In this document: positions 209-60,508 of the stretch, piece by piece
Numbering within the stretch: position 1 is the stretch's first letter
Layout: the number at the start of each line of letters is the position of its first letter
Origin: Hamadaea sp.
GTDB lineage: Bacteria; Actinomycetota; Actinomycetes; Mycobacteriales; Micromonosporaceae
Direction of reading: 5' to 3'
DNA length: 62,007 bases
Assembly (NCBI RefSeq): GCF_013362815.1
Contig: NZ_JABFVK010000024.1
Coordinates: forward strand, 1 to 62,007
Notes under the pieces: generated by a model
What the model saw: the letters and a program-made list of their open reading frames with translations, nothing else
Database searches by the model: none
What the model was told of the DNA's origin: nothing
Translations under genes and position numbers: made by a program

Positions 209-270
209 GTTGATCATGGAGTTTCCAGTGGCGACCCGGCGCGAAACCACGGTTGACTCCATGATCAACG
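209..270. repeat. GATC-capped inverted repeat, class C (locus 1)
   Basis: A perfect 15-base inverted repeat: arm CGTTGATCATGGAGT at 209-223 and its complement at 256-270, with a partly complementary interior. The right arm contains the TGA stop (265-267) of the MarR-GNAT gene. It could act as a terminator for that gene. The same outer word (GTTGATCATG) recurs at 21999 and 60189. Confidence 0.85.
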
Positions 271-1125
271 AAACAGGGGGAGGGAGAAGAAGCGCTGGCC
301 GTGGACGTCGTCGCCGTAGGGCGGGATCTCGGCGTACCCGAGGGCCTGATAAAGGGCGATCGCCTCGGGCAGGGCCTCGTGCGTACTGAGACGGAGTTCG
401 GTGAACCCGAGGTCGGCCGCCGACGATTCCAGGGAAGCCAGCAGACGTCGTCCGACGCCGAGACGCCGGGCGGAGGGACTGACCCACATGTGCTTGATCT
501 CGCCGACGCCCGGCGAAAGAACGCGAAGTCCGACGCAGCCAACCGGTGCGACGCCGTCCGACGCCACGAGGAAAAAGGCGAAGGCGGAGGCCGGCAGGAG
601 ATCGTCCGGCCCGTACCCCTCCGGGAAACGACGGGACAGCTCTTCGGCGTACTCGTGAAGGCATGAGCGAGCGACGGCGGATCCGGCGGCGACCGGCTGG
701 ACCTCGATGGCCGCGATCCGCAACAGGCGCTGGACCTCGTCCATGGCGTCGGCGAGGCGCCGGCGCTGGTCAGGGGTGAGCGGGTCGACGAGCGTGGCCA
801 CCGACTCGTCGGACCGGGTGTCGAGGTCGGACACCGCCGCGCGGCCCGCGGCCGTGAAGACCGCGATGCGCGCGCGGCCGTCCTCGGGGTGACGCTCGAG
901 GGTGATGAGGTCCTGGCGTTCGAGGGCGCGGAGCAGTCGGCTGAGGTAACCGGAGTCGAGGCCGAGGCGGGCGCGAACGGAACGGACGTCGGGATCGCGT
1001 GAGAGCTCGTAGAGCAGGCGGGCTTCGCCGAGCGAGCGTTGGCCCAGGTAGTGGTCGGTCAGCACGCCGATGCGCTGGGTGTAGTAGCGGTTGAACTCGC
1101 GAATGCGACCGGTGACCTGCTCCAT
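265..1125 (-). CDS. MarR-family regulator fused to GNAT acetyltransferase
   Basis: A 286-residue protein with two modules. Residues 1-140 form a MarR-type winged helix (ARARLGL-like recognition region around 50-68 and the basic wing HPEDGRARIAV at 79-89). Residues about 160-286 form a GNAT domain with the acetyl-CoA loop RRLGVGRRLL at 220-229 and the C-terminal YQALGY element. MarR-GNAT fusions are a known actinobacterial architecture; the acetylated substrate cannot be read from sequence. The ATG at 1123-1125 is close to a small palindrome (1137-1150). It is divergent from the MacA/LolD/FtsX-type operon, so it probably controls itself and perhaps that operon. The stop codon lies inside an inverted repeat. 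Confidence 0.9.
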   Translation of the reverse strand: MEQVTGRIREFNRYYTQRIGVLTDHYLGQRSLGEARLLYELSRDPDVRSVRARLGLDSGYLSRLLRALERQDLITLERHPEDGRARIAVFTAAGRAAVSDLDTRSDESVATLVDPLTPDQRRRLADAMDEVQRLLRIAAIEVQPVAAGSAVARSCLHEYAEELSRRFPEGYGPDDLLPASAFAFFLVASDGVAPVGCVGLRVLSPGVGEIKHMWVSPSARRLGVGRRLLASLESSAADLGFTELRLSTHEALPEAIALYQALGYAEIPPYGDDVHGQRFFSLPLFR

Positions 1126-1136
1126 GCAGAAAGTAT

Positions 1137-1150
1137 CTGACTAAAGTCAG
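1137..1150. promoter_or_regulatory. Probable MarR operator between divergent genes
   Basis: CTGAC-TAAA-GTCAG is a compact palindrome in the 70-base divergent gap, 12 bases upstream of the MarR-GNAT start and 46 upstream of the adaptor GTG. Size and position suit autoregulation by a MarR dimer. Not tested. Confidence 0.5.
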
Positions 1151-1195
1151 GTAATCTCAAGGCAACGCGGCAAGCCGGAAACGCGTCCATCGATT

Positions 1196-2179
1196 GTGCT
1201 GAAGCGAATCTTCACGGCGCTGGCCGTGCTCGCGGTGACGGCGGCGTGCTCCAACAGCCCTGAGCAGAGCGATACGCCTGGTCTGACCCCGCGTGGAACG
1301 ATCGTGACGACCGCGAAACCGACGCGGCAGGACCTGACGAATCGGGTGAGCCTCACCGGCAAGGTCACGGTCAACCCCGTGTTCGGGCTGGTCGCGCCGG
1401 TGACCGGGCAGGTCCGGTACGTGACGGTGACGACGCCGACGAGCACCCCGACGAAGCCGACCAAGGTCGCGACGGTGGTGGCGAAGGGCAAGTCGCACGT
1501 CGTGAACGTCCCGGCCGGGGCGATCTTCACCGGGCGGCTGGCCGACGACCGCTCCACCGTGCAGGCCGGGATGCCGATCGTCTCCGCCAAGCACGTCGGC
1601 TACGGGATCGTCGCCGACATCGACGGGGCTCAGGCATACAAGATCTCCGGGGCGCTGTCGACGGTCCGCGCGCAGATCACCAACGGTCCCGGCCCGTTCA
1701 CCTGCAACGTGCTCGGCACCATCGCCGCGCTGCCCGGCGGGGTCATCCCCGATCCGCCGGCCCAGCAGCCCGATCCGTCGGCCTCGCCGTCCGCGCCGCC
1801 GGTGGTCAAGGCGCCCCAGCAGAACACGACGCCGTCGGAACCGACCGGCATGCGCGTCGTCTGCATCGCGCCCGCCTCGGTCACCCTGATCAACGGCGCG
1901 GCCGTCACCATCGAGGTGGTCACCGAAAGCGCGACCAACGTCCTGGTCCTGCCGGTCGAGGCGGTCGCGGGTGGTCAGGGCAAAGGTCAAGTCGAAGTGG
2001 TACGCCCAGACGGCACCCACGAGACCCGGGAAGTAGTGCTGGGTCTCACGGATGGGAAGGTCATCCAGATCAAGTCGGGACTCACCGAGGCCGACACGGT
2101 CATGGTCCCGGGGCCGGACCTCCCGCCTGCGCAGACCACCGGCGAGCAGGGCGGACCCGGCGTCGTGGTGACGAAGTGA
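1196..2179 (+). CDS. Lipoprotein adaptor of an ABC exporter (MacA/HlyD-like)
   Basis: A 327-residue exported lipoprotein. The N-terminus has a short basic segment, a hydrophobic stretch and the lipobox VTAAC (Cys at residue 18). The body resembles peptidoglycan-binding/membrane-fusion adaptors: an early segment TRQDLTNRVSLTGKV, a Pro-rich spacer near 180-205, and a late barrel-like part (VLVLPVEAVAGGQGKGQVEVVRPDG... REVVLGLTDGKVIQIKSGL) typical of HlyD/MacA C-terminal domains. Start is GTG at 1196. The stop overlaps the next gene's GTG (GTGA), so the three genes are translationally coupled. Role inferred: extracytoplasmic partner of the LolD/FtsX-type ABC complex. Substrate unknown (peptide, antibiotic or lipid). 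Confidence 0.85.
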   Translation: MLKRIFTALAVLAVTAACSNSPEQSDTPGLTPRGTIVTTAKPTRQDLTNRVSLTGKVTVNPVFGLVAPVTGQVRYVTVTTPTSTPTKPTKVATVVAKGKSHVVNVPAGAIFTGRLADDRSTVQAGMPIVSAKHVGYGIVADIDGAQAYKISGALSTVRAQITNGPGPFTCNVLGTIAALPGGVIPDPPAQQPDPSASPSAPPVVKAPQQNTTPSEPTGMRVVCIAPASVTLINGAAVTIEVVTESATNVLVLPVEAVAGGQGKGQVEVVRPDGTHETREVVLGLTDGKVIQIKSGLTEADTVMVPGPDLPPAQTTGEQGGPGVVVTK

Positions 2180-2874
2180 CCGCATTGATCGAGCTGTCCG
2201 GCGTAACCAAGACGCTCAAGGGACAGCAGGAGCCACGCACCATCCTGTCCGGAGTGGACTTAAGCGTTCACGCCGGTGAAAGTGTGGCGGTGCTCGGCCG
2301 GTCCGGTTCGGGTAAGAGCACTCTGCTGAGCCTGATCGGCCTGTTCGACCGGCCCGACGGCGGGCAGTACCTGTTGAACGGCAAGGACATCACCAAGCTG
2401 CGGGAACGCAGAGCGGCCGCGCTGCGTAGCGCCGAGTTCGGCTTCGTGTTCCAGCGGTTCTTCCTGCTCAAGCACCTGACCGCCGCGCAGAACGTGGCGA
2501 TGGCGCTGGTCAACGGACAGGGCTGGCTGCCTCGGCGGCACCGTAAGGCGCGGGTGATGGCGGCGCTGGAACAGGTCGGCATCGCCCATCTGGCCAAGCA
2601 CCGGCCGGCTCGGCTGTCGGGCGGTGAGCAGCAGCGAGTGGCGGTCGCCCGGGCGTTGGTCCGGCAGCCGAAGGTGCTCCTGGCCGACGAGCCGACCGGC
2701 GCCCTCGACACCGAGACCGGCAACCTCGTCATCGAGGTGCTCCACGCGACCACGGAGATGGGCTGCGGCCTGGTGCTCGTGACGCACGACTGGGATCACG
2801 CCAGGCGCATGGGCCGCGTGGTACGCCTTTCCGACGGCGTACTGCATCCCGAGGATGTGGAGGTCGGAGTATGA
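2176..2874 (+). CDS. ABC transporter ATPase, MacB/LolD type
   Basis: A 232-residue nucleotide-binding subunit. Walker A GRSGSGKST is at residues 41-49, Q-loop FVFQRFF near 90-96, signature LSGGEQQRV at 147-155, Walker B VLLADEP at 167-173 and the H-loop LVTHDW near 202. The insert and length match the LolD/FtsE/MacB class, which drives FtsX-like permeases in mechanotransmission exporters rather than solute import. GTG start overlaps the adaptor stop; its own stop overlaps the permease ATG (ATGA). Confidence 0.95.
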   Translation: MTALIELSGVTKTLKGQQEPRTILSGVDLSVHAGESVAVLGRSGSGKSTLLSLIGLFDRPDGGQYLLNGKDITKLRERRAAALRSAEFGFVFQRFFLLKHLTAAQNVAMALVNGQGWLPRRHRKARVMAALEQVGIAHLAKHRPARLSGGEQQRVAVARALVRQPKVLLADEPTGALDTETGNLVIEVLHATTEMGCGLVLVTHDWDHARRMGRVVRLSDGVLHPEDVEVGV

Positions 2875-4190
2875 GGCGGTTCTCCGGGCGGCTGCGGTCC
2901 GCTCTGATCATCGGCATCCAGGGCATCCGCGCCCGCAAGACGCGTACGCTGCTGTCGATCGTCAGCCTGTTCCTCGGCGTGCTCGCCGTCGTCGTCGTGC
3001 AGGCGGGGGCGGAAGCGGCGAACAAGGCGGCCCTGGCCAACATCGAGTTGATGATGGGCAAGGACGGCACCGTTCAGATGTGGGTGCCGGACGAGAAGCA
3101 CGCGCTCTCGCTCACCCTCGACACGTTGAAGGGGCGTACGGACGCCGTCGGCACCCTCGGCACGAGCGCCACCATCGGCGAACCCGGCGTCAACCCGGTC
3201 AACCCCGGGGGCGGGCCGTTCGATCAGCCCGGCGAGTACGGGCCGATGGGCGGTGGCCAGTTCTATTGCGACACCCGGGGCTACTGCAAGGAGGTGCCCC
3301 AGCAGCAGCAGGCGGAACAGCCACCGGTCGGCGCGGCGATCGAACTCGGGTTGACCGGGTTCACCGGCGACATCCGGCCGTTCCGCCCGTACAAGCTGAC
3401 CTCGGGGAAGTGGCTCGATTTCAGCGGCCCGCCGTCGCTGGCCCCGCGCATCGTCGTCAACAAGGTCGCCGCGAAGGGATTCGCCCGCTACCAGATTCCG
3501 GCCGAGATGCGGATCAGAGGCGCCATCGCGAACCCGACTCCGCACATCATCGGCGTCGTCGACGACGGTCAGGACCGGCCGATGGCATACGTGCGGGCGG
3601 ACGAGCTGACGAACTGGGTTCCGACCACCACCGCGGGCACCTTCGGCGGGATGGAGATCCTGCGTACGCAGGAAGCCACCGATGTCGAGCAGATCCTCAA
3701 GCGGCGGCTGCTGGCCGACGGCCTCACGAACGACCAGTTCAGCTCGATGGTGATCCAGTCGAAGAAGGAGATCGAAGGGCAGCTGGCCATGTTCCGGCTG
3801 ATCTTCCTCGGCATCGCCGGGCTGGTGCTGCTCATCGGCGTCGCCGGCATCCTCAACGTCGGCCTGGCCACGGTCGGCGAACGGGTCGAGGAGTTCGCGC
3901 TCCGCCGAGCCGTCGGTACGCCCAGATCCCTGCTGGCCGGCATCGTGCTCGCGGAAACGCTGCTGACCGGGCTGTTCACCGCGGCCGCTGCGATCGGCGT
4001 CGCCTCTCTCTGTCTGAAAATCGTCAGCCGTGTCCTGGCCGGGCGGGCGGCGTTCCTGGCCGACATGGAATTCCCGTGGCAGGCCGGGGTCGCCGGAATC
4101 CTCGCCGGGCTGATCGCCGGGCTGCTGGGCGGGCTGATCCCCGCCATCCGGGCGGCCCGCATTCCGATCGCGACGGTCATGCGCGCCTGA
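2871..4190 (+). CDS. ABC permease, FtsX-like (MacB-type core)
   Basis: A 439-residue permease with one N-terminal membrane helix (residues about 25-45), a large extracytoplasmic domain (about 46-300) and three C-terminal helices, the MacB/FtsX pattern. The FtsX motif region FALRRAVGTPRSLL is near residue 343-356. It forms the transmembrane half of the exporter encoded with the adaptor and ATPase just upstream; overlapping ATGA junction shows one transcript. The extracytoplasmic part has a low-complexity insert rich in Pro, Gly and Gln (about 105-150). A GATC-capped inverted repeat (4227-4278) follows and may terminate the operon. Confidence 0.92.
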   Translation: MRRFSGRLRSALIIGIQGIRARKTRTLLSIVSLFLGVLAVVVVQAGAEAANKAALANIELMMGKDGTVQMWVPDEKHALSLTLDTLKGRTDAVGTLGTSATIGEPGVNPVNPGGGPFDQPGEYGPMGGGQFYCDTRGYCKEVPQQQQAEQPPVGAAIELGLTGFTGDIRPFRPYKLTSGKWLDFSGPPSLAPRIVVNKVAAKGFARYQIPAEMRIRGAIANPTPHIIGVVDDGQDRPMAYVRADELTNWVPTTTAGTFGGMEILRTQEATDVEQILKRRLLADGLTNDQFSSMVIQSKKEIEGQLAMFRLIFLGIAGLVLLIGVAGILNVGLATVGERVEEFALRRAVGTPRSLLAGIVLAETLLTGLFTAAAAIGVASLCLKIVSRVLAGRAAFLADMEFPWQAGVAGILAGLIAGLLGGLIPAIRAARIPIATVMRA

Positions 4191-4226
4191 CTCTCTTCCG
4201 CGCTTCGACCGCGCTTCTGACCGCCG

Positions 4227-4278
4227 GATCACGGTTATGCATGCTTCCTCGCGCTGGGAAGCATGCGTAACCGTGATC
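4227..4278. repeat. GATC-capped inverted repeat, class A (locus 2)
   Basis: Arms 4227-4248 and 4257-4278, 22 bases with a single T/C mismatch that would still be a G-U pair in RNA; loop of 8. The arm begins GATCACGGTTATGCATGC, nearly the same as the arms at 10374 and related to those at 31514 and 51459. It lies between the end of the ABC operon and the next gene in the same direction, a terminator-like position, but has no T-tract. Confidence 0.9.
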
Positions 4279-4354
4279 TGCTTGCTTCAGAGCGGGCCAC
4301 GGGGATGGGCGCCCACCTCTACCATCGGGGATCTCTGCTGGAGAAAGGACACTG

Positions 4355-5887: not shown

Positions 5888-5939
5888 CCGTGGCGGTGGG
5901 CGGGCATGTCCGGCCCGCCCACCGCATTCGGCGCCTTCG

Positions 5940-7178: not shown

Positions 7179-7179
7179 G

Positions 7180-7527
7180 TCAGCGATCCTGCAACAAGCC
7201 GAGGACATTGCCGTCGGGGTCGGTGACGGTCGCCACAACGCGGCCACCGCCGACTTCGCGTACGGGGTCCTGCACGGTGCCGCCCGCTGCCACGATCTCG
7301 GCGATTTTCGCCTCGATATCCGTCACCTCCCAGTACGTCACCGGGGATGTCATGCCCTGCGGTCCGCCACCCAGCACCAGCCCCACCTGCAGGCCGTCCA
7401 TGTCGAAGCCGACATAGTAGGAGGAATCACTCTGCGGCTGCCGGCCCAGCAGCGCGGCGTACACGTGCTTGGCCTTGGTCAGGTCGGAGACGGGGTGAAG
7501 CACGGTCTTGATGCCCTTGGTCGTCAT
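7180..7527 (-). CDS. VOC-family (glyoxalase/bleomycin resistance-like) protein
   Basis: A 115-residue single VOC unit: KTVLHPVSDLTKAKHVYAALLG at the start, a central YYVGFDMDGLQVGLV strand, and the C-terminal VATVTDPDGNVLGLLQ typical of these folds. Enzymatic versus binding role is unknown. The ATG at 7525-7527 is preceded by GAAAGAC. It is the first gene of a two-gene unit with the MFS transporter (1-base gap) and is divergent from the LuxR/ATPase regulator at 7622, which may control it. Confidence 0.88.
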   Translation of the reverse strand: MTTKGIKTVLHPVSDLTKAKHVYAALLGRQPQSDSSYYVGFDMDGLQVGLVLGGGPQGMTSPVTYWEVTDIEAKIAEIVAAGGTVQDPVREVGGGRVVATVTDPDGNVLGLLQDR

Positions 7528-7621
7528 GTCTTTCAGCCTCGACCACCGCGCTGCCGCGCACATCCGTGGCGACCACGGGGAGCACCACGTATTCCGCGGA
7601 GCGTGAGGCACAATTGGCCGC

Positions 7622-10369
7622 GTGACAGCGGTCCAGGCAGGGATTTCCACGCGCGAGGCCGAGGTGCTGGCCCTGCTCGGCGACCACCTCAGCAACGCGG
7701 AGATCGCCGCGCGTCTGTTCATCTCGGTCCGTACCGTCGAAACCCACGTCTCGTCGATGTTGCGCAAGCTCGACGCGCCGGACCGGCGCGCGTTGGCCCA
7801 GCTCGCGGCCGAGTGGGGCCGGGCCGCGCGGGGTGGCGATGTCACACTCGGGCTGCCGGCGCCGGTGACGGCTTTCGTCGGCCGCGCGCAGGAAAGAGCA
7901 ACGCTGGTCGAGGCGGTCACGGCCCACCGGCAGGTCAGCGCGGTCGGTCCCGGCGGCGTCGGCAAGACCCGCCTCGCGCTCGCGGTCGCGAGCGACGCCG
8001 CGGCCGATTTCACCGACGGCGTCTGGTTCGTCGACCTCGTGCCGATCACGGATGCCGCGATGGTCGGCGCCGCGGTCGCCTCGGCCGTCGGGGTGGGCGA
8101 GCAACAGGGCCGCGGCCTGGACGACAGCGTGATCTCCGCGCTCGCCGATCGGCACGCGCTGCTCGTTCTCGACAATTGCGAACATGTACGCGACGGAGTT
8201 GCGCCCTTCGTGGAACGGTTGCTCGCGGGGTGCCCGCGAGTGACGGTGCTGGCCACGAGCCGGGCCCGGTTGATGGTTCCCTTCGAACGAGTGCACCCGG
8301 TTCCGCCGCTGTCGCTGGAGGGTGACGCCGACTCCGACGCGGTGGCGCTGTTCCTCGACCGGGCCGCCGCGGTCGGCTCGCCGGTCGCGCCCGAGCAGCG
8401 AGACCAAGTCGCCGGCATCTGCCGGGGGCTGGACGGGGTGGCCCTCGCGATCGAACTGGCCGCCGCCCGGCTGCCGATGCTGGGGCTCGACGGGCTGACC
8501 GAGGTGCTCTCCGACCAGCTTCGGGTGCTCACCGGCGGAGCCCGCGCCGCCGACCGGCATCGGTCGGTACGCGCGACGCTGGACTGGAGCGTCGCACTGC
8601 TCGACCCGGCCGACCGTACGCTGCTCCAGCGGATCGCCGTCTTCGTGGCACCGTTCACAATGGACGCATCCGCTCAAGTGGCCGGAGCCACAATGGACGG
8701 ACTGGCTCGGTTGGCGGAGCAGAGCCTGCTGTCGGCCGCGCCGGCACCGGGTGGCATGCGTTACCGGACGCTGGAGACCATCCGTCAGTACGGCCTGGAG
8801 CAGCTGGCCGCCACGGGTGAGCTCGACCGCGTACGCGCCGAGCACCTGCGGTGGTGTCTCGCCTTGGCGACTGAGCTGGCCGAGGACCCGAAATCGGGGA
8901 CCGGTGCGTGGCGGGCCCGCTTCGACTACGCCGCCGACGATCTGCGGGCCGCCCTCGGCTGGGCCGCCACCTCGCCCGAGCACCGAGCCGACGCGTACGC
9001 CCTCGCCTCGGCGCTGGCGCAGACGGCGTTCAGCCGGAACCTCATCGGCGAAGCGCAGCAGCGCTACGAACAGGCCGCTGACTTGGCCGGCGATCCCGTT
9101 CCGGCCGGAGCCGCCCTGCGACAGGCGGCCGCCGTCGCCGGATGCCGGATGCGCGGTGACGACATGTATCGCCTCTATCGAGCCGCCGCCGAGACCGCCC
9201 GGGATGCCGGCGACGACGCCGGAACCGCTCGCGACCTGGCGACGGCCGCCGCGACGGTCTACCGATTCTCCGGCACGTTCGCCGACCCGCCGTCCGCCGA
9301 GCAGGCGGCTGCGTTGCTGACCGAGGCGCAGTCGCTCGCCGGAGACGATCCGGCCGCGCTGGCCGCGGTCGCGCTGGCCGAGTGCGGCGTACTCAGTGCT
9401 GAGGCAGGGTTGCCGGCGGCGTCGTCTCGCGCCGAACGCGCCGTCGAGCTGGCTCGGAGCAGCGGCGATCCGCTTGCGCACAGTGCGGCGCTCGACGCTC
9501 TCGCGGCGGTGCAGTGCTGGGCCGGTGACACCTTCGCGACCGCTGCCTCCGCTCGTCAGCGGGTGGACTTGCTGGCCAAGGTTCCGGCCACGCCGGCCGG
9601 CGCGCTTGAGCGCACGTACGCCTTGTCCGAAGCCGCCGAGATGTCGGTCGGAGTCGGTGATCTGGCCGCCGCCCGCCGGTGGGGCGAGGAACTCCGGGAT
9701 CTGCCGCTGCTGGCCGAACGCGGCGACTTCGCGACATCCCGGCTGCTCGTCGCCGATGCCCTCGCCGGTCGGGCCGACGGCGTACTGGCCGCTTGTGGCC
9801 GTTTCCGCGACGCTTGGGGCCGGTCGGGCGGGCTGCATACGCCGACTCTCGCCGTCGCGGCCGCTGCCGTCGCGATGATCCACGGCCTCCGCGGTGACGA
9901 CGTCGCCCGGTCGGAGTGGCTGGAAGTCGTCGACGAACTCGACGTCGCCCCGGAACTGCGAGCCGGATACAGCGCGGTATTCGACGCGACTGTGCTGCTG
10001 CACTCGGGTCGCGCCGACGAAGCCTTCACGTTGCTCGCCGCCGACCCCGACGAACTGGGGGAGTGGGCCATCTGGGTGTGGCGGCACTGGTATCTCGCTG
10101 CGCGCGCGGAAGCCGCCGCGCTGCTCGATCGGCCCGACGCTCGCGACCTGATCGCCGCCGCCCGCCCGATCGTGACCGGCAACCCGGTCGCGTCCGCGCA
10201 ACTGGACCGCGCGGAAGCGTTGCTGGACAACGACTCTGAGCGCTTACGCGCCATCGCGGCCGACTTCGAGGACGCGGGCAGCCGCTATCAGGCCGCCCGC
10301 ACGCTTTCCCTGGCTGGGGACGCCGCCCACGGATCGGCTGCGCTGGCCGCTCTCGGGTTCACCGCCTAG
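7622..10369 (+). CDS. LuxR-HTH / NB-ARC-type ATPase transcriptional regulator
   Basis: A 915-residue regulator with the DNA-binding domain at the N-terminus: residues 8-65 are a LuxR/GerE helix-turn-helix (STREAEVLALLGDHLSNAEI, RTVETHVSSMLRKL). A STAND-type ATPase follows: P-loop GPGGVGKT at 109-116, Walker B LLVLDNCEH near 180, and an ARC-like winged segment around 310-390 (RATLDWSVALLDPADRTLL). Residues about 400-915 are alanine-rich helical repeats of TPR type. This differs from the usual LuxR order (HTH at C-terminus, as in MalT). Ligand unknown. GTG start at 7622. Divergent from the VOC/MFS pair, which is a plausible target. Its TAG stop abuts an inverted repeat. Confidence 0.9.
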   Translation: MTAVQAGISTREAEVLALLGDHLSNAEIAARLFISVRTVETHVSSMLRKLDAPDRRALAQLAAEWGRAARGGDVTLGLPAPVTAFVGRAQERATLVEAVTAHRQVSAVGPGGVGKTRLALAVASDAAADFTDGVWFVDLVPITDAAMVGAAVASAVGVGEQQGRGLDDSVISALADRHALLVLDNCEHVRDGVAPFVERLLAGCPRVTVLATSRARLMVPFERVHPVPPLSLEGDADSDAVALFLDRAAAVGSPVAPEQRDQVAGICRGLDGVALAIELAAARLPMLGLDGLTEVLSDQLRVLTGGARAADRHRSVRATLDWSVALLDPADRTLLQRIAVFVAPFTMDASAQVAGATMDGLARLAEQSLLSAAPAPGGMRYRTLETIRQYGLEQLAATGELDRVRAEHLRWCLALATELAEDPKSGTGAWRARFDYAADDLRAALGWAATSPEHRADAYALASALAQTAFSRNLIGEAQQRYEQAADLAGDPVPAGAALRQAAAVAGCRMRGDDMYRLYRAAAETARDAGDDAGTARDLATAAATVYRFSGTFADPPSAEQAAALLTEAQSLAGDDPAALAAVALAECGVLSAEAGLPAASSRAERAVELARSSGDPLAHSAALDALAAVQCWAGDTFATAASARQRVDLLAKVPATPAGALERTYALSEAAEMSVGVGDLAAARRWGEELRDLPLLAERGDFATSRLLVADALAGRADGVLAACGRFRDAWGRSGGLHTPTLAVAAAAVAMIHGLRGDDVARSEWLEVVDELDVAPELRAGYSAVFDATVLLHSGRADEAFTLLAADPDELGEWAIWVWRHWYLAARAEAAALLDRPDARDLIAAARPIVTGNPVASAQLDRAEALLDNDSERLRAIAADFEDAGSRYQAARTLSLAGDAAHGSAALAALGFTA

Positions 10370-10433
10370 CTGCAGATCACGGTTACGCATGCCTCCGCGG
10401 CCGCTTTTGGCATGCATAACCGTGATCTGCAGC
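10369..10433. repeat. GATC-capped inverted repeat, class A (locus 3)
   Basis: Arms 10369-10393 and 10409-10433, 25 bases with one mismatch, loop 15. The left arm starts at the last base of the upstream TAG stop codon. The core GATCACGGTTACGCATGC matches the class A element at 4227. It lies between convergent genes and could terminate both. Confidence 0.9.
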
Positions 10434-10471
10434 TAACGAGCGGGCGCGGTTGGGCGCGGCGAGCGGGCGAG

Positions 10472-12341: not shown

Positions 12342-12347
12342 CCTCCT

Positions 12348-12399
12348 TGATCAGCGGAAGTTTCGTGGGGTCAGGACACCGCGAAACTTCCGCTGATCA
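12348..12399. repeat. GATC-capped inverted repeat (locus 4)
   Basis: Perfect 18-base arms: TGATCAGCGGAAGTTTCG at 12348-12365 and its complement at 12382-12399, spacer 16. It starts seven bases after one stop codon and ends six bases before the convergent gene's stop, so it fills the whole convergent gap. The stem sequence is not shared with other loci in the window except for the GATCA caps. Confidence 0.9.
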
Positions 12400-15430: not shown

Positions 15431-15490
15431 GCTGGATCAGGGATCCGGGTCGTACTCGCGCCAAGATTCGACCCGGAACCCTGATCCAGC
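15431..15490. repeat. GATC-capped inverted repeat, class B (locus 5)
   Basis: Arms 15431-15452 and 15469-15490, 22 bases with one mismatch, spacer 16. The right half (15462-15490) matches 55870-55898 with a single difference over 29 bases, a clear dispersed repeat. Located between two genes in the same direction. Confidence 0.9.
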
Positions 15491-21995: not shown

Positions 21996-22062
21996 CGCGT
22001 TGATCATGAACCTAAGGTCCGGCTTTGGCCTTCGGCCGGACCTTAGGTTCATGATCAACGCG
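21996..22062. repeat. GATC-capped inverted repeat, class C, perfect 28-base stem (locus 6)
   Basis: The longest perfect stem of the family: 21996-22023 pairs fully with 22035-22062 around an 11-base loop. The outer word CGTTGATCATG is shared with loci 1 and 12. It fills the 88-base gap between two convergent genes. Suitable as a bidirectional terminator structure, without U-tract. Confidence 0.95.
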
Positions 22063-31469: not shown

Positions 31470-31510
31470 CCTTCTCGCGCTTTAAGCACGCCTTGGGCGC
31501 GCTTTGAGGT

Positions 31511-31568
31511 GCAGATCAGGGATATGCATGCTTCCCGAGCCGGGGAAGGCTGCAAATCCCTGATCTGC
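31511..31568. repeat. GATC-capped inverted repeat, class A (locus 7)
   Basis: Arms 31511-31536 and 31543-31568, 26 bases with three mismatches, all internal. Opening GCAGATCAGGGATATGCATG relates it to the class A elements at 4227, 10369 and 51455. It lies between two genes in the same direction and is followed directly by a 17-base tandem repeat. Confidence 0.85.
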
Positions 31569-31613
31569 AGGGAACAAACATCTGCAGGGAACAAACATCT
31601 GCAGGGAACAAAG
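31565..31613. repeat. 17-base tandem repeat, nearly three copies
   Basis: CTGCAGGGAACAAACAT occurs at 31565-31581 and 31582-31598, and its first 14 bases plus one changed base at 31599-31613. The first unit starts inside the right arm of the inverted repeat, so the expansion appears to have grown from its outer edge. Confidence 0.95.
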
Positions 31614-38252: not shown

Positions 38253-40277
38253 GTGACCGCCCCGCAGTGGCTGCGCCGCCCCTCCGGCGCCGCGCCGCGC
38301 CTCTCGTTCGGCGCCGACTACAACCCGGAGCAGTGGCCCCGTGAGGTCTGGCAGGAGGACGTACGCCTGATGCGGGAGGCGGGGGTGGACGTCGTCTCGC
38401 TCGCCATCTTCTCCTGGGCGAAGCTCCAGCCGGCGGCGGATCGGTGGGACTTCGAGTGGCTCGACGAGGTGATGGACCTGTTGCACGCCAACGGGATCGG
38501 CGTCGACCTGGCCACCGCGACCGCGTCGCCGCCGCCGTGGCTGACCGCGAAGCACCCCGAGATCCTGCCGGTCACCGCGCTGGGGGAGACGTTGTGGCCG
38601 GGCGGACGGCAGCACTGGCGGCCGACGTCGCCGGTCTTCCGGCAGTACGCCCTGGCGCTCGTCGACAAGTTGGCGACGCGATACAAAGACCACCCGGCCC
38701 TGGTCGCCTGGCACGTGTCGAACGAGCTGGGCTGCCACAACGTCTACGACTACTCCGACGACGCCGCGCGGGCGTTCCGCAAGTGGCTGCGCGACCGGTA
38801 CACGACCATCGAGGCGCTGAACCATGCGTGGGGCACCGCCTTCTGGTCCCAGCAGTACGCCGTCTGGGACGAGATCCTCCCGCCGCGCCTCGCGGCGACG
38901 CACCCGAACCCGACGCAGCAACTGGACTTCAAACGGTTCTCCGACCACGCCTTGCGTGAGCACCTCCGGGCCGAGCGAGACCTCCTGCGGCAGCACACCC
39001 CCGACGTCCCGATCACCACGAACTTCATGGTCATGGGCGAGATGAAGACCATGAACTACCCGGTCTGGGCCGACGACGTCGACTTCATCGCCAACGACCA
39101 CTACGTCGTGCCGGGGCCGCAAGCTCAGGACGAGCTGTCGTTCTCGGCCAACCTCACGAGCAACATCGCGGGCGGGCGGCCCTGGTTCCTCATGGAGCAC
39201 TCCACCAGCGCCGTGAACTGGCAGCCGGTGAACGTGCCGAAGAAGTCCGGGGAACTCATCCGAGATTCGCTGACGCATGTCGCACACGGAGCCGACGCCG
39301 TCTGCTTCTTCCAGTGGCGGCAGTCCGCGGCCGGAGCCGAGAAGTACCACTCGGCCATGGTCCCGCACGCCGGGCCGGACAGCGCCGTCTTCCGTTCGGT
39401 GACGCGGCTCGGTGCGACGCTTCGCGACCTCGCGCCCGTCGCCGAGGCCGTCCGCGAGCAGTCGCCGGCCGCCATCGTCTTCGACTGGGAGTCCTGGTGG
39501 GCCGTCGAGGCCGACTCGCACCCCACCAACCGGCTGAAGTATCGGCAGGAAGCGCTCGACTGGTACACCGCCTTCCTCAACCTCGGCATCCGGGCCGACG
39601 TCGTGCCGCACGGCACGTCGCTGGGTGCGTACCGGATGGTCGTCGCGCCGATGTTGCACGTGCTCAGCGAAGGCGCAGCCAAGGAACTGCGCGACTACGC
39701 GGAGAGCGGCGGCCACCTGGTCACGACCTATTTCTCGGGTGTCGTGAACGAGCACGACCACATCTGGCTCGGCGGTTACCCGGGCGCACTGCGCGACCTG
39801 CTCGGCGTCCGGGTCGAGGAGTTCGCCCCGCTGCTCGACGGCGAGGTGGTTCGGCTCGACAGTGGACTGTCCGGCACGACCTGGTCCGAGCGCGTCGACA
39901 CCGCGAGCGACGTCTCGGCCCTGGCTCGCTACACCGACGGCGAGCTGGCCGGTTATCCCGCGATCACCCGCCGGATCACCGGGACCGGCTCCGCGGCGTA
40001 CGTCTCGACGCGCCTCGGGGCCGCGGGTCTCACCCGCGTCCTGGGCGACCTGGCCGCCGCGGCCGGTCTGGACAGCGACCTTCCCGCTTCCGTGCGCGGT
40101 CAGGTCGAGCTAGTGGTACGCCGAAAGCAGGGAACCAGGTTCGCCTTCTTGATCAACCGCACCACCCGGCCGGTGACAGTCGCCGGATTGGCGGGGCAGC
40201 CGCTGGTGGGCCGCGTTGCCGGGGGAGCCGTCGAACTGGAACCCCGTGGCGTAGCCGTCCTTTTCGCGCGATCATGA
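38253..40277 (+). CDS. Beta-galactosidase, GH42
   Basis: A 674-residue cytoplasmic enzyme. GADYNPEQWPREVW opens the TIM barrel; WHVSNELGCHN holds the acid/base Glu158 and WFLMEHSTSAVNW the nucleophile Glu315, followed by the trimerisation (about 390-600) and C-terminal beta domains of GH42. No signal peptide, so it hydrolyses imported galactosides. Start is GTG at 38253, nine bases after AAGGAG; an earlier GTG at 38226 lacks this site. Last gene of the LacI-controlled operon. Its stop codon falls within a GATC-rich palindrome. Confidence 0.95.
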   Translation: MTAPQWLRRPSGAAPRLSFGADYNPEQWPREVWQEDVRLMREAGVDVVSLAIFSWAKLQPAADRWDFEWLDEVMDLLHANGIGVDLATATASPPPWLTAKHPEILPVTALGETLWPGGRQHWRPTSPVFRQYALALVDKLATRYKDHPALVAWHVSNELGCHNVYDYSDDAARAFRKWLRDRYTTIEALNHAWGTAFWSQQYAVWDEILPPRLAATHPNPTQQLDFKRFSDHALREHLRAERDLLRQHTPDVPITTNFMVMGEMKTMNYPVWADDVDFIANDHYVVPGPQAQDELSFSANLTSNIAGGRPWFLMEHSTSAVNWQPVNVPKKSGELIRDSLTHVAHGADAVCFFQWRQSAAGAEKYHSAMVPHAGPDSAVFRSVTRLGATLRDLAPVAEAVREQSPAAIVFDWESWWAVEADSHPTNRLKYRQEALDWYTAFLNLGIRADVVPHGTSLGAYRMVVAPMLHVLSEGAAKELRDYAESGGHLVTTYFSGVVNEHDHIWLGGYPGALRDLLGVRVEEFAPLLDGEVVRLDSGLSGTTWSERVDTASDVSALARYTDGELAGYPAITRRITGTGSAAYVSTRLGAAGLTRVLGDLAAAAGLDSDLPASVRGQVELVVRRKQGTRFAFLINRTTRPVTVAGLAGQPLVGRVAGGAVELEPRGVAVLFARS

Positions 40278-40346
40278 ACTATCGGGCATGATCGATCGGT
40301 GTGTCGTGTCCGCAGGAGCCTGATCGTTCCGGCCGGAACCTGATCA
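40269..40346. repeat. GATC-rich inverted repeats between convergent genes (locus 8)
   Basis: Two small units: CGATCATG (40269-40276) with CATGATCG (40287-40294), and TGATC-GTTCCGG/CCGGAAC-CTGATCA at 40321-40346, where the arms differ by a two-base insertion. Both have GATC at their outer ends like the larger members. The first contains the GH42 stop, the second supplies the TGA stop (40344-40346) of the convergent gene. Confidence 0.65.
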
Positions 40347-51454: not shown

Positions 51455-51517
51455 CTGCAGATCAGGGTTACGCAGCCTTCCGTAGGCTCAGGAAGGCTGC
51501 GTAACCGTGATCCGCAG
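51455..51517. repeat. GATC-capped inverted repeat, class A (locus 9), partly coding
   Basis: Arms 51455-51481 and 51491-51517, 27 bases with two mismatches, loop 9. The right arm is inside the AlkZ-like gene and encodes its last nine residues. Core GGTTACGCAGCCTTCC is related to the class A arms at 4227 and 31511. Confidence 0.92.
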
Positions 51518-55790: not shown

Positions 55791-55840
55791 CGTTGGGGCG
55801 CTGCCTGTCCGTTGGGGCGCTGCCTGTCCGTTGGGGCGCT
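55791..55840. repeat. 19-base tandem repeat, 2.6 copies
   Basis: CGTTGGGGCGCTGCCTGTC occurs at 55791-55809 and 55810-55828, then its first 12 bases at 55829-55840, where it runs into the left arm of the inverted repeat. Mirrors the tandem repeat attached to the palindrome at 31565. Confidence 0.95.
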
Positions 55841-55900
55841 GGATCAGGGTTCTGGGGCGAATCATGGCGCAAGATTCGACCCAGAACCCTGATCCAGCGC
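55836..55900. repeat. GATC-capped inverted repeat, class B (locus 10)
   Basis: Arms 55836-55863 and 55873-55900, 28 bases with one mismatch, loop 9. The right half is nearly identical to 15462-15490. Located between convergent genes. Confidence 0.93.
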
Positions 55901-55915
55901 CATCGCACCGGAAGA

Positions 55916-56581
55916 TCATGAGCCGGCCCGCACCAGCCCGGTCTCATAAGCGAAAACGACGATCTGTACGCGATCGCGCAACCCGAGCTTGGTCAGCACT
56001 CGCCCGACGTGCGTCTTCACGGTCGCCTCGGCGACCACCAGCTTCGCGGCGATCTCGGCGTTCGAGAGGCCCTGCGCGACCAGCAGCACGACCTCGCGTT
56101 CGCGATCGGTGAGCGCCGCCAGCCGAGGTTCGGCGGTCGAGACGACGAAGCGCCCGGCGAAGTGGTCGAGCAGTTTGCGAGTCACGCGCGGGGCGACCAC
56201 CGCGTCACCGGCTGCGACGGCGCGAATCGCGCCGAGCAGATCCTCCGGCGGGGCGTTCTTGAGCAGGAAACCACTCGCGCCTGCTTGAAGTGCGGCGAAC
56301 GCGTCCTCGTCGGTGTCGAACGTCGTCAGGACCAGCACCTTCGGCCCGTCCGGCTGCTCGGCGAGCTGCTGAGTGGCGCTCACCCCGTCGAGGACCGGCA
56401 TCCGGATGTCCATGACGACGACGTCCACCGGCTGGCCCCGGCGGGCGAATTCGCGTACCTGGGAGACGGCGGCGGCACCGTCCCCGGCCGATCCGGCTAC
56501 TTCGATGTCCGGCTGCGACGACAAGATCATCTCCAGCCCCGTACGCACCAACGGCTGGTCGTCGACGATGAGCACTCTCAC
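55916..56581 (-). CDS. NarL/FixJ-type response regulator
   Basis: A 221-residue regulator: receiver domain with Asp58 in VVVMDIRMPVLDG, switch Thr in VLVLTTFDTD and Lys in LLKNAPPEDL; LuxR HTH at about 152-215 (LTDREREVVLLVAQGLSNAEI, ATVKTHVGRVLTKLGLRDR). GTG at 56581 overlaps the kinase stop (GTGA). Target genes not shown; the convergent ABC exporter is a candidate. Confidence 0.95.
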   Translation of the reverse strand: MRVLIVDDQPLVRTGLEMILSSQPDIEVAGSAGDGAAAVSQVREFARRGQPVDVVVMDIRMPVLDGVSATQQLAEQPDGPKVLVLTTFDTDEDAFAALQAGASGFLLKNAPPEDLLGAIRAVAAGDAVVAPRVTRKLLDHFAGRFVVSTAEPRLAALTDREREVVLLVAQGLSNAEIAAKLVVAEATVKTHVGRVLTKLGLRDRVQIVVFAYETGLVRAGS

Positions 56582-57714
56582 GCGGCCACCGCCTCGGGCA
56601 GCGGCAGGCAGGCGCGGACTTCCCAGCCCCCGGCCAGCCGTGGCCCGGCGTGCAGCGAGCCGCCGTGCACAGAAACCCGTTCCCGCATCCCGGTCAGACC
56701 GTGGCCGTCGACACAGGGCCCCCCGCGTCCGTTGTCGGTGAGGTGCACGACGATCTCGTCGCCGTCCCGGCGCAGGTCCAGGTCCACCTGGGCATCCGGT
56801 CCGGCATGCCGCATGACGTTGGTCAAACCCTCCTGCACGATCCGGTAGACGGCGAGTTCGAGGGCGGGCGAGTCGACCGCGCCGACCGTGTTCTCCACGC
56901 GTACGGTCAATCCGGCCGAGCGCGCCCCGGCGACCAGCGGGTCCAGCTCGGCGAGCGTGATCCGGCGACGACTCTGCGGCGAATCCGCGCTGCCCCGCAG
57001 CACCCCCACCAGCCGCCGCATGTCCTCCAGCGCGGCGCGCCCGGTCTCCGCCACCGTCGCCATGGCCTGCCGGGACTTCTCCGGATCGGCGTCGAGCGCG
57101 TACCGGCCGCCGTCGGCCTGCACGACCATCACCGCGAGGCTGTGCGCGACCACGTCGTGCAGCTCACGAGCGATGACCGCGCGCTCGTCGGCCACCGCGA
57201 TCCGGGCCAGGTGCGCGCGTTCCCGTTCCAAGCTCGCCGCGCGTTCCTCCAGGCCCGCGACATAGATGGCCCGTTGTCTCACCGTGTACGCCATGAGCCA
57301 GACGCCGCCGCAGATCCCGACGTAGAAAAGCGTCATCTGCCACCAGCTGTCGGCGTCGGCGTGCCGAGCGACTTCGATGACGATCCCGATCGCGACGACG
57401 AATCCGGAGATCAGGCCACCGCGCAGGGTCTTGGAGTACTTGACCGCGCTGTACATCCCGATGAGCACGGCGAGGTCGTAGGGGAGTGGATCATGCGCCC
57501 TGCTCCAGAACACGACCTGCGCCAAGGCCATGGCGGCGATCACGCCCATGCTCCAGAGCGGCCGATGACGCCGGACCAGCAGCGCGACCGCCATCACCAG
57601 GCCGAGCCAGGTGAGCGCCGGGGAGGTCTGCCGGAGGAAGATCGGCAGAGTGGCCAGGCAGGCGACGCCCGCCGAGACGAGCACGTCGAACGCCAGGGAC
57701 CTCGGGTTACGCAT
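56578..57714 (-). CDS. HisKA_3 sensor histidine kinase
   Basis: A 378-residue kinase with about six N-terminal hydrophobic segments (1-150), a short coiled coil (EERAASLERERAHLARI), phospho-acceptor His186 in ELHDVVAHSL and a HATPase domain (QEGLTNVMRHAG, LTDNGRGG, GHGLTGMRERV). DesK/NarX-like, partner of the downstream response regulator. ATG at 57712-57714. No extracellular sensor loop of size, so it may sense membrane state. Confidence 0.94.
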   Translation of the reverse strand: MRNPRSLAFDVLVSAGVACLATLPIFLRQTSPALTWLGLVMAVALLVRRHRPLWSMGVIAAMALAQVVFWSRAHDPLPYDLAVLIGMYSAVKYSKTLRGGLISGFVVAIGIVIEVARHADADSWWQMTLFYVGICGGVWLMAYTVRQRAIYVAGLEERAASLERERAHLARIAVADERAVIARELHDVVAHSLAVMVVQADGGRYALDADPEKSRQAMATVAETGRAALEDMRRLVGVLRGSADSPQSRRRITLAELDPLVAGARSAGLTVRVENTVGAVDSPALELAVYRIVQEGLTNVMRHAGPDAQVDLDLRRDGDEIVVHLTDNGRGGPCVDGHGLTGMRERVSVHGGSLHAGPRLAGGWEVRACLPLPEAVAA

Positions 57715-57772
57715 GCCTGCCAGGGTATCCGGCCGGTCGGCGCCGCCGGGTTCGTCGTCGGCGCGGCCGCCG

Positions 57773-57886
57773 CCCCATGATCGTCGGCTGCCGACATTCT
57801 TGGCGCTTCCGGCCTCCATGATCGTCGGAAGCCGACATTCGTGGGCGTTTAAGTGCACTGATCGTCGGCTTCCGACGATCATGGGG
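57773..57886. repeat. GATC-capped composite inverted repeat, class D (locus 11)
   Basis: CCCCATGATCGTCGG (57773-57787) pairs perfectly with 57872-57886. Between them a second direct copy CATGATCGTCGG begins at 57817, and the right end is itself a hairpin GATCGTCGG-CTT-CCGACGATC (57860-57880). It lies in the 341-base gap (57715-58055) between divergent genes, unlike the other loci, so it is upstream of both. The rest of the gap must hold both promoters; no gene was seen in it. Confidence 0.85.
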
Positions 57887-58055
57887 CGGACGCCGCAGCC
57901 GCCCCAACCGGGGAACAGGGGTCGATGAGGTGTCGCGGCCGGCCCGTCGAGACGTATGCTTCGGCTTGTTACCGCACTTGTCGCATGAAGAATGCCGTCC
58001 ACAGTGTCGTCCACAGTGGCGTGACGGGACGGCCCGCCCGCGAAGGCGAGGGGGA

Positions 58056-60176
58056 ATGGAGCCCGACGGCCTCGGACGGTTCGCCCGGCGCTGGTCGGAG
58101 GCGCTCGGCGCGACCTGCGACGAGCCGCCGCCGGACCTGGCCGATGTGCTGGAACGGCTGACCCGAGACCTCGCGGGCGCGCTGCGGGACGACACCGTGG
58201 AGGCGCGGGCCGAAGAAGCCGCCGCCACCCTCGTCGGTCTGGATTTCCACACCCCCGCCGCGGTACGCCGGACGATCGAGGTCTTCGCCGACGGCTTCCT
58301 CGACGAGATCCGGGGCGAACCTGGTGCCGAGGACGAGATCAAGCTGCGGGCCCGGCTCGGGCAGCTCCTCGGCGGGCTCTCCGCCGGCTTCGCTCAGGCG
58401 TTGCGCGTACGCACCCGGACCGAGCAAGAGGCCGTGCAGCGGGCCGCCCTCCGCGCAGTACGCCTGGCCGAGCACGACCGGCGCGTCGTGGAGGCCCGGT
58501 TTCGAGCCGTCTTCGCCGACGCCGCAGTCGGCATCGCCATGGTCGACCTGAGTGGCCGGCTGATCGAGGTCAACACGGCGTTCGCCCGGATGCTCGGCTT
58601 CGTGCCGGAAGACATCCGGGGCCGGACCGTCGGCGAGATCATCGGCGACAGCGGGCACGGCCCGACCTCCAGCCGTTATCTGGATCTGCTCAGCGGCGGC
58701 CGGGATCACTTCCGCACCGAGACGATCCGCGTACGCCCCGACGGCAGCCGACTCGTGCTGGACCTGTCGATGTCGATGGTGCGGGACGACGACGGCGCGC
58801 CCGGTTTCCTGATCGGGGTCACCGTCGACATCACCGAGCGGCGACGGCTGCAGGACCAGCTCTGGCACGAGTCCCGGCACGACGCGCTGACCGGGCTGCC
58901 CAACCGGACCCTGTTCGCCGAGCGGCTGGCCGAACGGCTCGCCGAACCGGCCTGCGGCCGACTGGGTCTGTCCTTTCTGGACCTCGACGGCTTCAAGGAC
59001 GTCAACGACAGCCTCGGGCACGCCGTCGGCGATCAACTCCTCGTGGCGGTCGCCCGGCGGCTGGAGGCGGCGGTCGCGTACGGGGATCGGCTGGTGGCCC
59101 GGCTGGGCGGCGACGAGTTCGTGGTGCTCGACGACGACTGCGTGGGCGAGGCCGCCGTGGTCGGACCGGCCGAGGCCATCCTCGCGGCGCTGCGTGAGCC
59201 GTTCCACGTCGGTGGCCGGGAACTCACCATCACGGCGAGCATCGGAGTGGTCGACTCCCGGGCGGTCGGCGCCGATCCGCAGGCGTTGATGCGAGCCGCC
59301 GACATCACGCTCTATCGGGCCAAGGCCGAAGGCAAGAGCCGGTTGGCCCGCTACGACCCGAGAGACAGCGCCCGCCAGATCACTCAGCACACCTTGGCGA
59401 CGGCCCTGCCCGGTGCGCTGACCCGGCAGGAGTTCTTCTGCGACTACCAGCCGATCGTCGGGCTCGCCGACGGGCGGCTACGCGGCGTCGAGGCGCTGAT
59501 CCGCTGGCGGCATCCGCAACTCGGCATCGTGGGCCCGAACCAGTTCATCCCGGTCGCCGAGGAGACTGGGCACATCGCGGCGGTCGGCCGCTGGGTGCTC
59601 GCCGCCGCCTGCCGCCAGGCCGGCGAGTGGGCCGCCGCCAATCCGACGCTGACCTGCTACATCAGCGTCAACGTGGCAGTCGGGCAGCTGCGCCGGCCCG
59701 GGTTGGCCGACGACGTGATGCAGGTGCTCACCGAGGGCGGCATCCCACCCGAACGGCTCCAGCTCGAACTGACCGAGTCGGCCGTCCTCGGCGATGACCG
59801 CGGCCCGGCCGACGAACTGCAGCGGCTCGCCGACACCGGCGTACGCCTCGCGATCGACGACTTCGGGACCGGGTACGCCAATCTCGCATACCTGACGAGA
59901 CTGCCCGTACGCCAAGTGAAGCTCGCCGGCGAATTCCTCAAGCCGCTGCGTACGGGGCACAGCGTCGACCCGAAGCACGATCGGCTGCTCTCCGCCGTCA
60001 TCGCGCTCGCCCACGACCTCGGGCTGAGCGTCACCGCCGAAGGCGTCGAGCACCAGGCCCAGGCGGATCGGCTACGCGACCTCGGCTGCGACGCGGCCCA
60101 GGGCTGGTTGTTCGGCCAGCCCGGCCCGGCCGAGGAAGTGGGGCGGCTCATCGCACGTCAGAACCGCCCCACCTGA
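58056..60176 (+). CDS. PAS-GGDEF-EAL cyclic-di-GMP protein
   Basis: A 706-residue soluble protein. N-terminal helical region (about 1-140), PAS domain (about 145-265: FRAVFADAAVGIAMVDLSGRL, VDITERRRLQDQL), GGDEF (about 275-435, RLGGDEFVVL) and EAL (about 450-700: GVEALIRW, ELTESAVL, DDFGTGYAN, AEGVEH). The GGDEF domain lacks an RxxD I-site at the usual place. In the EAL domain the usual KxD of LKIDxxFV reads VKLAGEF, so the Asp is replaced, and phosphodiesterase activity is uncertain. ATG at 58056 has GAGGGGGA close by. Ends convergently in a palindrome-rich gap. Confidence 0.92.
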   Translation: MEPDGLGRFARRWSEALGATCDEPPPDLADVLERLTRDLAGALRDDTVEARAEEAAATLVGLDFHTPAAVRRTIEVFADGFLDEIRGEPGAEDEIKLRARLGQLLGGLSAGFAQALRVRTRTEQEAVQRAALRAVRLAEHDRRVVEARFRAVFADAAVGIAMVDLSGRLIEVNTAFARMLGFVPEDIRGRTVGEIIGDSGHGPTSSRYLDLLSGGRDHFRTETIRVRPDGSRLVLDLSMSMVRDDDGAPGFLIGVTVDITERRRLQDQLWHESRHDALTGLPNRTLFAERLAERLAEPACGRLGLSFLDLDGFKDVNDSLGHAVGDQLLVAVARRLEAAVAYGDRLVARLGGDEFVVLDDDCVGEAAVVGPAEAILAALREPFHVGGRELTITASIGVVDSRAVGADPQALMRAADITLYRAKAEGKSRLARYDPRDSARQITQHTLATALPGALTRQEFFCDYQPIVGLADGRLRGVEALIRWRHPQLGIVGPNQFIPVAEETGHIAAVGRWVLAAACRQAGEWAAANPTLTCYISVNVAVGQLRRPGLADDVMQVLTEGGIPPERLQLELTESAVLGDDRGPADELQRLADTGVRLAIDDFGTGYANLAYLTRLPVRQVKLAGEFLKPLRTGHSVDPKHDRLLSAVIALAHDLGLSVTAEGVEHQAQADRLRDLGCDAAQGWLFGQPGPAEEVGRLIARQNRPT

Positions 60177-60187
60177 CCCGGTTCGCC

Positions 60188-60508
60188 CGTTGATCATGGA
60201 ACTCGGACAATTCGGCGACGTCGAACTGAAGCAGACGCCATCGCATGATGATCGTCGGGAGCCGACGATCTTGCTCGATCCCAGCTCCAGCAATTGCCGC
60301 CGGGGACTGGGCGTGATCATGTTCCCTGGGTCTGCGATTTCCGGCCGGCACCTGCCGACATGTGCCCGTGGTCTGCGCCAGAAGGCCGATTTCCGCAGAC
60401 CACAGGTACTTGATCATCAGTTCTGGCCCCGAAATCGCATACCACGGGCACGGGATCTTGACGCGCGCCCGAATCCTTTACCAACGGGCTCTAACTCCAT
60501 GATCAACG
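60188..60508. repeat. Palindrome-rich convergent gap (locus 12)
   Basis: This fills most of the 368-base non-coding gap 60177-60544. Outer class C arms CGTTGATCATGGA (60188-60200) and its complement (60496-60508) are 295 bases apart. Inside are a class D hairpin GATCGTCGG-GAG-CCGACGATC (60250-60270), an arm pair GTGGTCTGCG/CGCAGACCAC (60368-60377, 60394-60403), and a longer-range pair GTGCCCGTGGT/ACCACGGGCAC (60362-60372, 60441-60451), plus GATCAT words at 60315 and 60412. It looks like several elements nested in one another. No coding frame is credible. Confidence 0.85.

Follow-up and report, generated by a model that had tools for sequence, protein, structure and literature searches.

Palindromic repeats tagged with GATC, probably mobile, at gene ends of Hamadaea

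Why do twelve short inverted repeats, each with GATC near both ends, lie mostly at gene ends in one 62,007-nt stretch of Hamadaea DNA? The stretch (hereafter, the window) corresponds to contig 6 of 124 in a genome of 7.45 Mb (~69% GC), and a first reading of its letters (the original prediction) had offered the repeats as U-tract-less bidirectional terminators, non-autonomous mobile elements, or nucleoid or methylation sites. We followed them through 807 kb (11%) of the genome of the window (G000, 97% complete) and into three further Hamadaea genomes (G001; G002, 87% complete; G003). With a probability of roughly 60%, they are mobile palindromes that carry a GATC tag, resemble repetitive extragenic palindromes (REPs) and fill a hairpin slot at gene ends, most likely as a terminator or mRNA 3' boundary.

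GATC-capped inverted repeats exceed chance

An inverted repeat (arms ≥14 nt) counted as capped when GATC fell within 8 nt of both its ends. By this measure 47 of 146 inverted repeats in the G000 sequence were capped, compared with 1 of 22 in one run of an order-2 Markov null and 1-5 capped in five more runs. The density in the 807 kb was above the null, and the shuffle-type comparison left the original observation standing. When each of the 16 palindromic 4-mers was tried as the cap, GATC came first (47) and CCGG second (24), though CCGG is nearly twice as frequent in the sequence.

A second scan required 10 of 12 complementary bases inside two GATCs, with the same scan without complementing as control. 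It found 36 elements in G000 (807 kb), 39 in G001 (700 kb), 6 in G002 (177 kb) and 21 in G003 (300 kb), against 1, 2, 0 and 0 in the control. Other Micromonosporaceae, sampled over 475 kb (nine genera at 40 kb plus six named loci; 15 sources, at most 40 kb from each), yielded 4 elements, about six times fewer per kb. The first 400 kb of G000 contig C31 held 9 GATC hairpins compared with 10 in the 62-kb window, a sparsity that may be regional.

Multi-copy families and a genome-specific burst

The repeats formed about ten multi-copy families of compact palindromes, with arms starting CGTTGATCATGG (family A), CTGCAGATCACGGTTACGC (B), CTGCAGATCAGGGATATGC (B2), CATGATCAGCGGAAG (C), GCGCTGGATCAGGGWTCYSGGYCGAATC (D), CGTTGATCATGAACC (E) and CATGATCGTCGG (F); K, M, H and G are further families. 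Likeness between copies dropped within a few bases past the palindrome end in A-E, extending ~12 nt further on one side in a C variant, and loops and asymmetric parts were common to copies. An arm had its partner in 68 of 69 cases in D, 62 of 68 in B and 10 of 10 in M. Some gaps held mosaics: among 18 C-variant copies, F-like sequence lay near 5 and H-like sequence near 4 (within ~60 nt).

Copy numbers differed between genomes. The D pattern (at most one mismatch) gave 313 near-exact arms in G000, 133 in G001 and 326 in G002, and had no match in G003 or in 196 genomes from the family's other genera. G003 has GATC-capped families of its own, with 24 capped inverted repeats in 300 kb (a count that includes one run of N). 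The C variant occurred in at least 25 places in G000 at 93-100% over 64-80 nt, the query's place included (40 of 88 candidates scored). Its best match in G001 was 89% over 54 nt, shorter partial matches there reached 94%, and none was found in G003. This burst is recent and genome-specific, and the elements therefore are or were mobile. Multi-copy families, the burst and sites without a counterpart in the related genome (below) together give good support to the non-autonomous mobile elements of the original prediction, and REP-like mobile palindromes with a GATC tag are the likely identity.

The tag itself is well kept. Matches between intergenic regions had GATC inside in 967 of 1016 cases, a 95% figure that is raised because 19 of the regions were chosen for carrying elements. 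With GATC masked from the motif search, it was still intact in 98% of D, 94% of B, 100% of C and 100% of E arms. Ranked among 4-mers, it was best in D together with ATCA and tied with its neighbours in C and E, while in B the next few letters were slightly better conserved. In view of this conservation, GATC looks more like a tag recognised in DNA.

The elements sit just past stop codons

The twelve capped repeats of the window proved real. Ten loci carried strong inverted repeats (arms 21-32 nt, 83-100% complementarity) and accounted for ten of the twelve pairs that head the window repeat list. The hairpin at 40269 was weaker and asymmetric (minimum free energy -22.3 vs a shuffled mean of -17.6), and 60188 was composite. 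GATC stood 0-6 nt from the outer ends, and single units spanned about 50-70 bp. The loci are as follows.

Locus 209 (208..270): family A palindrome (CGTTGATCATGG...), over the 3' end of minus-strand gene 265-1125; same kind at the orthologous place in G001.
Locus 4227 (4227..4278): family B palindrome (GATCACGGTTAYGCATGC...), tandem gap, 37 nt past the stop of plus-strand gene 2871-4190; G001 counterpart B-type, with both arms changed.
Locus 10369 (10367..10435): family B palindrome, convergent gap, beginning at the stop of plus-strand gene 7664-10369.
Locus 12348 (12348..12399): family C palindrome (TGATCAGCGGAAGTTTCGCGG...), 3' end of minus-strand gene 12405-14006.
Locus 15431 (15431..15490): family D palindrome (GCGCTGGATCAGGGWTCYSGGYCGAATC...), tandem gap, 15 nt past the stop of plus-strand gene 14184-15416; family K at the site in G001.
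Locus 21996 (21996..22062): family E palindrome (CGCGTTGATCATGAACC...), convergent gap; no element in G001 or G002.
Locus 31511 (31510..31569): family B2 palindrome (TGCAGATCAGGGATATGCATGC...), tandem gap; B2 in G001.
Locus 40269 (40269..40330): asymmetric E-like element (GATCATGAACTATCGGGCATGATC...), convergent gap; present in G001.
Locus 51455 (51455..51517): family B palindrome, overlapping the stop of minus-strand gene 51488-52498; B in G001.
Locus 55836 (55835..55901): family D palindrome, convergent gap; D in G001.
Locus 57773 (57773..57890): family F cluster (GATCGTCGGAAGCCGACGATC units), between divergent genes 56578-57819 (minus) and 58056-60176 (plus), overlapping the predicted start of the former; orthologous place in G001 without a GATC hairpin.
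Locus 60188 (60188..60508): composite with A-like ends and F- and G-like units inside, convergent gap; not one hairpin.

By our own gene calls, made with a simple script rather than taken from annotation, five loci were convergent (10369, 21996, 40269, 55836, 60188), six lay in tandem at a gene 3' end (209, 4227, 12348, 15431, 31511, 51455) and one was divergent (57773). This split departs slightly from the six convergent, five tandem and one divergent of the original prediction. The scan also returned a GATC pair at 34401-34497, which lies inside a gene and looks like chance. Rfam at gathering thresholds reported one cut-off tRNA and nothing for these elements, and a promoter and terminator scan of positions 1-20000 added nothing on them.

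The same placement was seen on a larger scale. Of the 102 second-scan elements of the four genomes, convergent gaps held 48, tandem gaps 39 and divergent gaps 7, and 8 fell within predicted genes. Convergent gaps, with 13-25% of the intergenic bases, showed the enrichment that had been put forward as a check, and the elements avoided divergent gaps. Tandem-gap elements were nearer the upstream stop than the next start in 35 of 38 cases, at a median stop-to-GATC distance of 20 nt.

Hairpins of any kind (arms of at least 10) were present in 64% of convergent gaps in G000, 61% in G001 and 44% in G003, compared with 6-14% of shuffled gaps. The nine other genera had one in 59% (17/29), about as often as Hamadaea. 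A GATC-capped hairpin occupied 16 of 83 convergent gaps in G000, 20 of 80 in G001, 3 of 32 in G003 and 2 of 29 in the other genera. This conservation of the gene-end slot is the main support for a terminator role, which is plausible on the sequence evidence. U-poor 3' ends are known in Streptomyces (PMC8269248, PMC12207403), including 353 high-stability sites lacking U among the 3' ends of Streptomyces clavuligerus (PMC8269248).

Orthologous sites tend to stay occupied while families can change

G001 is syntenic with G000, mostly at 82-89% DNA identity. Among 213 orthologous gaps of the two genomes, 13 were occupied in both, with 2.4 expected from the occupancies by gap type. With B and B2 treated as a single family, the occupants belonged to the same family in 8 of the 13 and to different families in 5 (E/K, D/K, D/B, B/D and B2/F). 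A sixth exchange (E/F at C31 139500) was recognised in alignments, one GATC of the E element being mutated; this G000 element was added by eye, which means that the scan itself supplied five of the six exchanges and inspection the other. Two one-sided G001 matches (C5 98604 and C31 98931), judged to be chance and overlapping coding sequence, were dropped before the permutations. Among gaps with no family in common, permutation within gap type gave a mean of 0.53 different-family sites and a maximum of five, and 0 of 20000 permutations reached six. With gaps shorter than 75 bp excluded, the mean was 1.33 and six was again never reached.

Two further exchanges lie beyond that test. After gene 7664-10369 there is a B element in G000, a C element in G001 and a D element in G002, with other neighbour genes beyond. 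The composite at 60188 faces a D palindrome in G001, which has one GATC mutated and stands just past the same upstream gene. Co-occupied sites and differing families together indicate a tendency for places to persist, with room for the sequence in them to change.

Empty sites were found as well. Three G000 elements had no G001 counterpart, namely the F cluster at 57773, the E element at 21996 and the E pair at C31 80326. The latter two face gaps of 24 bp and 35 bp in G001. Two M elements were present in G001 only. Synteny between G000 and G003 was uninformative (31 shared gaps, one of them convergent).

Comparison with known palindromic repeats

The elements are REP-like in the wide sense, as high-copy intergenic palindromes beside 3' ends in convergent and unidirectional gaps, and they stand outside the GTAG and CGTC superfamilies, lacking the defining tag. 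With the GTAG REPs, which are associated with the RAYT (REP-associated tyrosine) transposases, they share short multi-copy palindromes, a conserved tetranucleotide and several families per genome, some of them species-specific (PMC3733652). GTAG and CGTC REPs also show the same bias to positions beside gene 3' ends, in convergent and tandem gaps (PMC3733652). They differ in that GTAG or CGTC is unpaired and at one end, whereas here GATC lies in the stem and at both ends, and units of about 50-70 bp exceed the 20-40 bp of a REP unit in the narrow sense. The host here belongs to the actinobacteria, and the word actinobacterium is absent from the main text of PMC3733652. CGTC REPs are likewise tagged palindromes apparently without a dedicated transposase, according to the authors of that paper, and are known from Proteobacteria, Chlorobi, Bacteroidetes, Spirochaetes and Thermotogae (PMC3733652).

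Mosaics of palindromic units in intergenic gaps, as in the 60188 composite and the C variant with F- or H-like sequence, recall bacterial interspersed mosaic elements (BIMEs) and REP doublets forming hairpins (REPINs); in those systems single-tag REPs pair regularly about a conserved linker, an arrangement not seen here. Like the U-poor (I-shaped) terminators of GC-rich actinobacteria, they are strong stems near gene ends without a U-tract, whereas those terminators are not described, in the text of PMC8269248 available to us, as dispersed sequence families with a shared tag. A literature search found neither GATC-tagged palindromic repeats nor such repeats in Hamadaea among the matches listed; most subscription journals lay outside the search, which makes this weak evidence of absence.

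A probably mobile, tagged palindrome in a gene-end slot

The reading we prefer is as follows. Several families of non-autonomous REP-like palindromes, partly built into BIME-like mosaics, carry a common GATC tag, mostly GATCA, about 3-6 nt from each end, and their copying around the genome, now or recently, would be the work of an enzyme that recognises GATC together with a hairpin. Copies are retained just past stop codons, chiefly in convergent gaps. There they occupy a gene-end hairpin slot which in other Micromonosporaceae is taken by hairpins rarely capped by GATC, and their most likely role would be that of a bidirectional terminator poor in U-tracts, or of a 3' boundary of the mRNA. With time one family replaces another at the slot, a new copy probably inserting beside an old one that is then lost.

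Several results weigh against this reading. For mobility, the Y1 (RAYT) transposase PF01797 was found in none of the four Hamadaea genomes (controls positive in 5 of 14), and RAYT was rejected as the mobilising enzyme. No target-site duplication of the kind that marks miniature inverted-repeat transposable elements (MITEs) was seen as a direct repeat outside the palindromes. Within the 11% of the genome examined, there was no autonomous copy and there were no unpaired arms around a transposase gene, and none of eight genes with elements on both sides matched a transposase family. Partnered arms were also fewer in C (17/23), E (16/25), A (12/21) and K (8/11), some of the unpartnered arms being matches inside genes or asymmetric variants. 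For termination, a U-tract on either side was rare (4 of 176 hairpins in G000, 10 of 172 in G001 and 3 of 64 in other genera); for the twelve window elements the 8 bases on the far side held 0-4 T and the 8 bases on the near side 0-2 A, short of the U-tract of a canonical intrinsic terminator. In D, C, E and A (34, 10, 10 and 6 elements), differences between the two arms of one element were about as frequent as between arms taken from separate elements (0.164 within vs 0.172 between in D), so pairing was not visibly repaired. Finally, in tandem gaps the wobble test on the sense RNA gave 91 G-U vs 77 A-C, with no significant preference (p 0.32).

The missing arm covariation in these four families and the missing wobble preference speak against RNA pairing as the property under selection and leave selection at the RNA level weakly evidenced. 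The U-tract-less bidirectional terminators first proposed have position and conserved gene-end slots on their side, with no RNA-level selection seen. Folds were more stable than shuffles. Family B arms covaried (0.160 vs 0.240; 112 mismatches, the lowest of 2000 permutations having 133), a result that subfamilies could also give. The claim that matching arms reflect selection on the hairpin consequently holds for B only, where its subfamilies may explain it, and fails for D, C, E and A. In the eight same-family orthologous pairs, 13 stem positions had changed on both sides, with ~3.9 expected under a uniform rate, and 6 of these went from one Watson-Crick pair to another; the expectation ignores the clustering of changes at a few degenerate positions, and the excess is not decisive.

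Apparent 4-nt duplications (GCGC, TGCA, CGCG and CATG) turned out to be self-palindromic family ends. Seven of the eight element-flanked genes matched GntR/aminotransferase, AurF, glycosyl hydrolase 18 (two), glycosyl hydrolase 43, NAD synthase and DUF559-type endonuclease-like families, and the eighth, searched without its start, had no family match. The endonuclease-like gene (REase_MTES_1575/DUF559; L085:12316-13212 in G001) has GATC hairpins on both sides and is a possible, single-case lead to a GATC-reading enzyme. The window gene 10472-12223 (minus strand), for a GntR/aminotransferase (MocR-like) regulator, is bounded by B and C elements and lacks a DNA match behind the corresponding upstream gene in both G001 and G002.

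Alternative explanations

The alternative that survives best, though we think it unlikely, is that the elements are neutral REP- or MITE-like parasites, their gene-end bias arising from removal elsewhere and their shared sites being insertion hot spots. Families, a burst and a restricted distribution are what such parasites would produce, RNA-level selection was not seen, and REPs of other phyla have the same position bias (PMC3733652). Six different-family sites where 0.5 were expected sit less easily with it, though a hot spot could do likewise. GATC is kept better than most positions, unlike uniform decay, and the hairpin share of convergent gaps is not clearly above that of other genera (29 gaps there), as extra insertions would make it.

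It is less likely still that the elements are binding sites for a GATC-reading chromosome protein (e.g. Gbn, SCO1839) or for a supercoiling enzyme, the hairpin being incidental. Gene ends are places where supercoils meet, GATC ranks first or nearly first in conservation within the elements, and D arms vary as independent motif copies. Gbn of Streptomyces binds GATC followed by (A/T)T, GATCWT (PMC9239103), and this motif is read inward, as GATCAT, in A, E, H and K and outward in C and F. It is on neither side in B and D, two of the largest families, so the nucleoid-site role of the original prediction fits some families and not others, and the arms of D, B and M almost never occur singly. For the methylation-site role, PF02086 (MethyltransfD12, Dam-like) was not found in G000, G002 or G003, other methyltransferase families not being searched, and in G001 it matched two pieces of one open frame barely above the cut-off. 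With PF02086 not found in three of the four genomes, Dam-like methylation was rejected as the reason for GATC.

Intrinsic terminators that arose and evolved in place under pairing selection, likeness between loci being convergence, would account for the position past stops, the stable folds, the both-side stem changes and the covariation in B, but they are very improbable, being already disfavoured by the burst of near-identical copies and by the loops and asymmetric parts that copies share, with no arm covariation in D, C, E or A, a both-side expectation that ignores degenerate-position clustering, and two subfamilies within B.

Other features of the window and the genomes

A second dispersed palindrome family, CGCGTTATCCCGGGATAACGCG-like and without GATC, was seen on G000 contigs C5 and C31, and an 18-mer of it occurred 11 times in the 807 kb. 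Many of the most frequent 14-mers of G000 include GCGTACGC or GGTACGCC and resemble a highly iterated octamer. GTAC occurred at 4.9 per kb in G000, compared with 3.3 per kb for AGCT.

In the window, two ATGTTTACGTAAACAT copies (34860-34933), probably operators, lie between the gene of a LacI-family regulator (33771-34760) and that of a transport permease (34906-35904), and the second copy runs over the predicted start of the permease gene. Overlapping GTCAGCATATGCTGACG repeats (41263-41317) stand between genes 41049-41261 and 41329-42069 and are also present in G001. Positions 60545-61000 encode a 151-residue protein matching the Hcp family of type VI secretion, systems that are not known to be typical of actinobacteria.

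Implications for Hamadaea

How REP-like sequences spread without a RAYT transposase, and why they settle at gene ends, are questions on which this system bears. Many families with one tag, together with their exchange at orthologous gene ends, bring two matters within reach of a test: the identity of the enzyme or protein that reads GATC, and the possible supply of terminators by mobile palindromes in a high-GC genome. More tentatively, and with somewhat more doubt than belief, the elements may represent a third tagged class of REP-like sequences, with GATC at both ends and in an actinobacterial genus, moved by a non-RAYT enzyme that would read GATC plus almost any stem, and supplying exchangeable terminators. 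If this is true, the terminators of a genome would be turned over as mobile cassettes.

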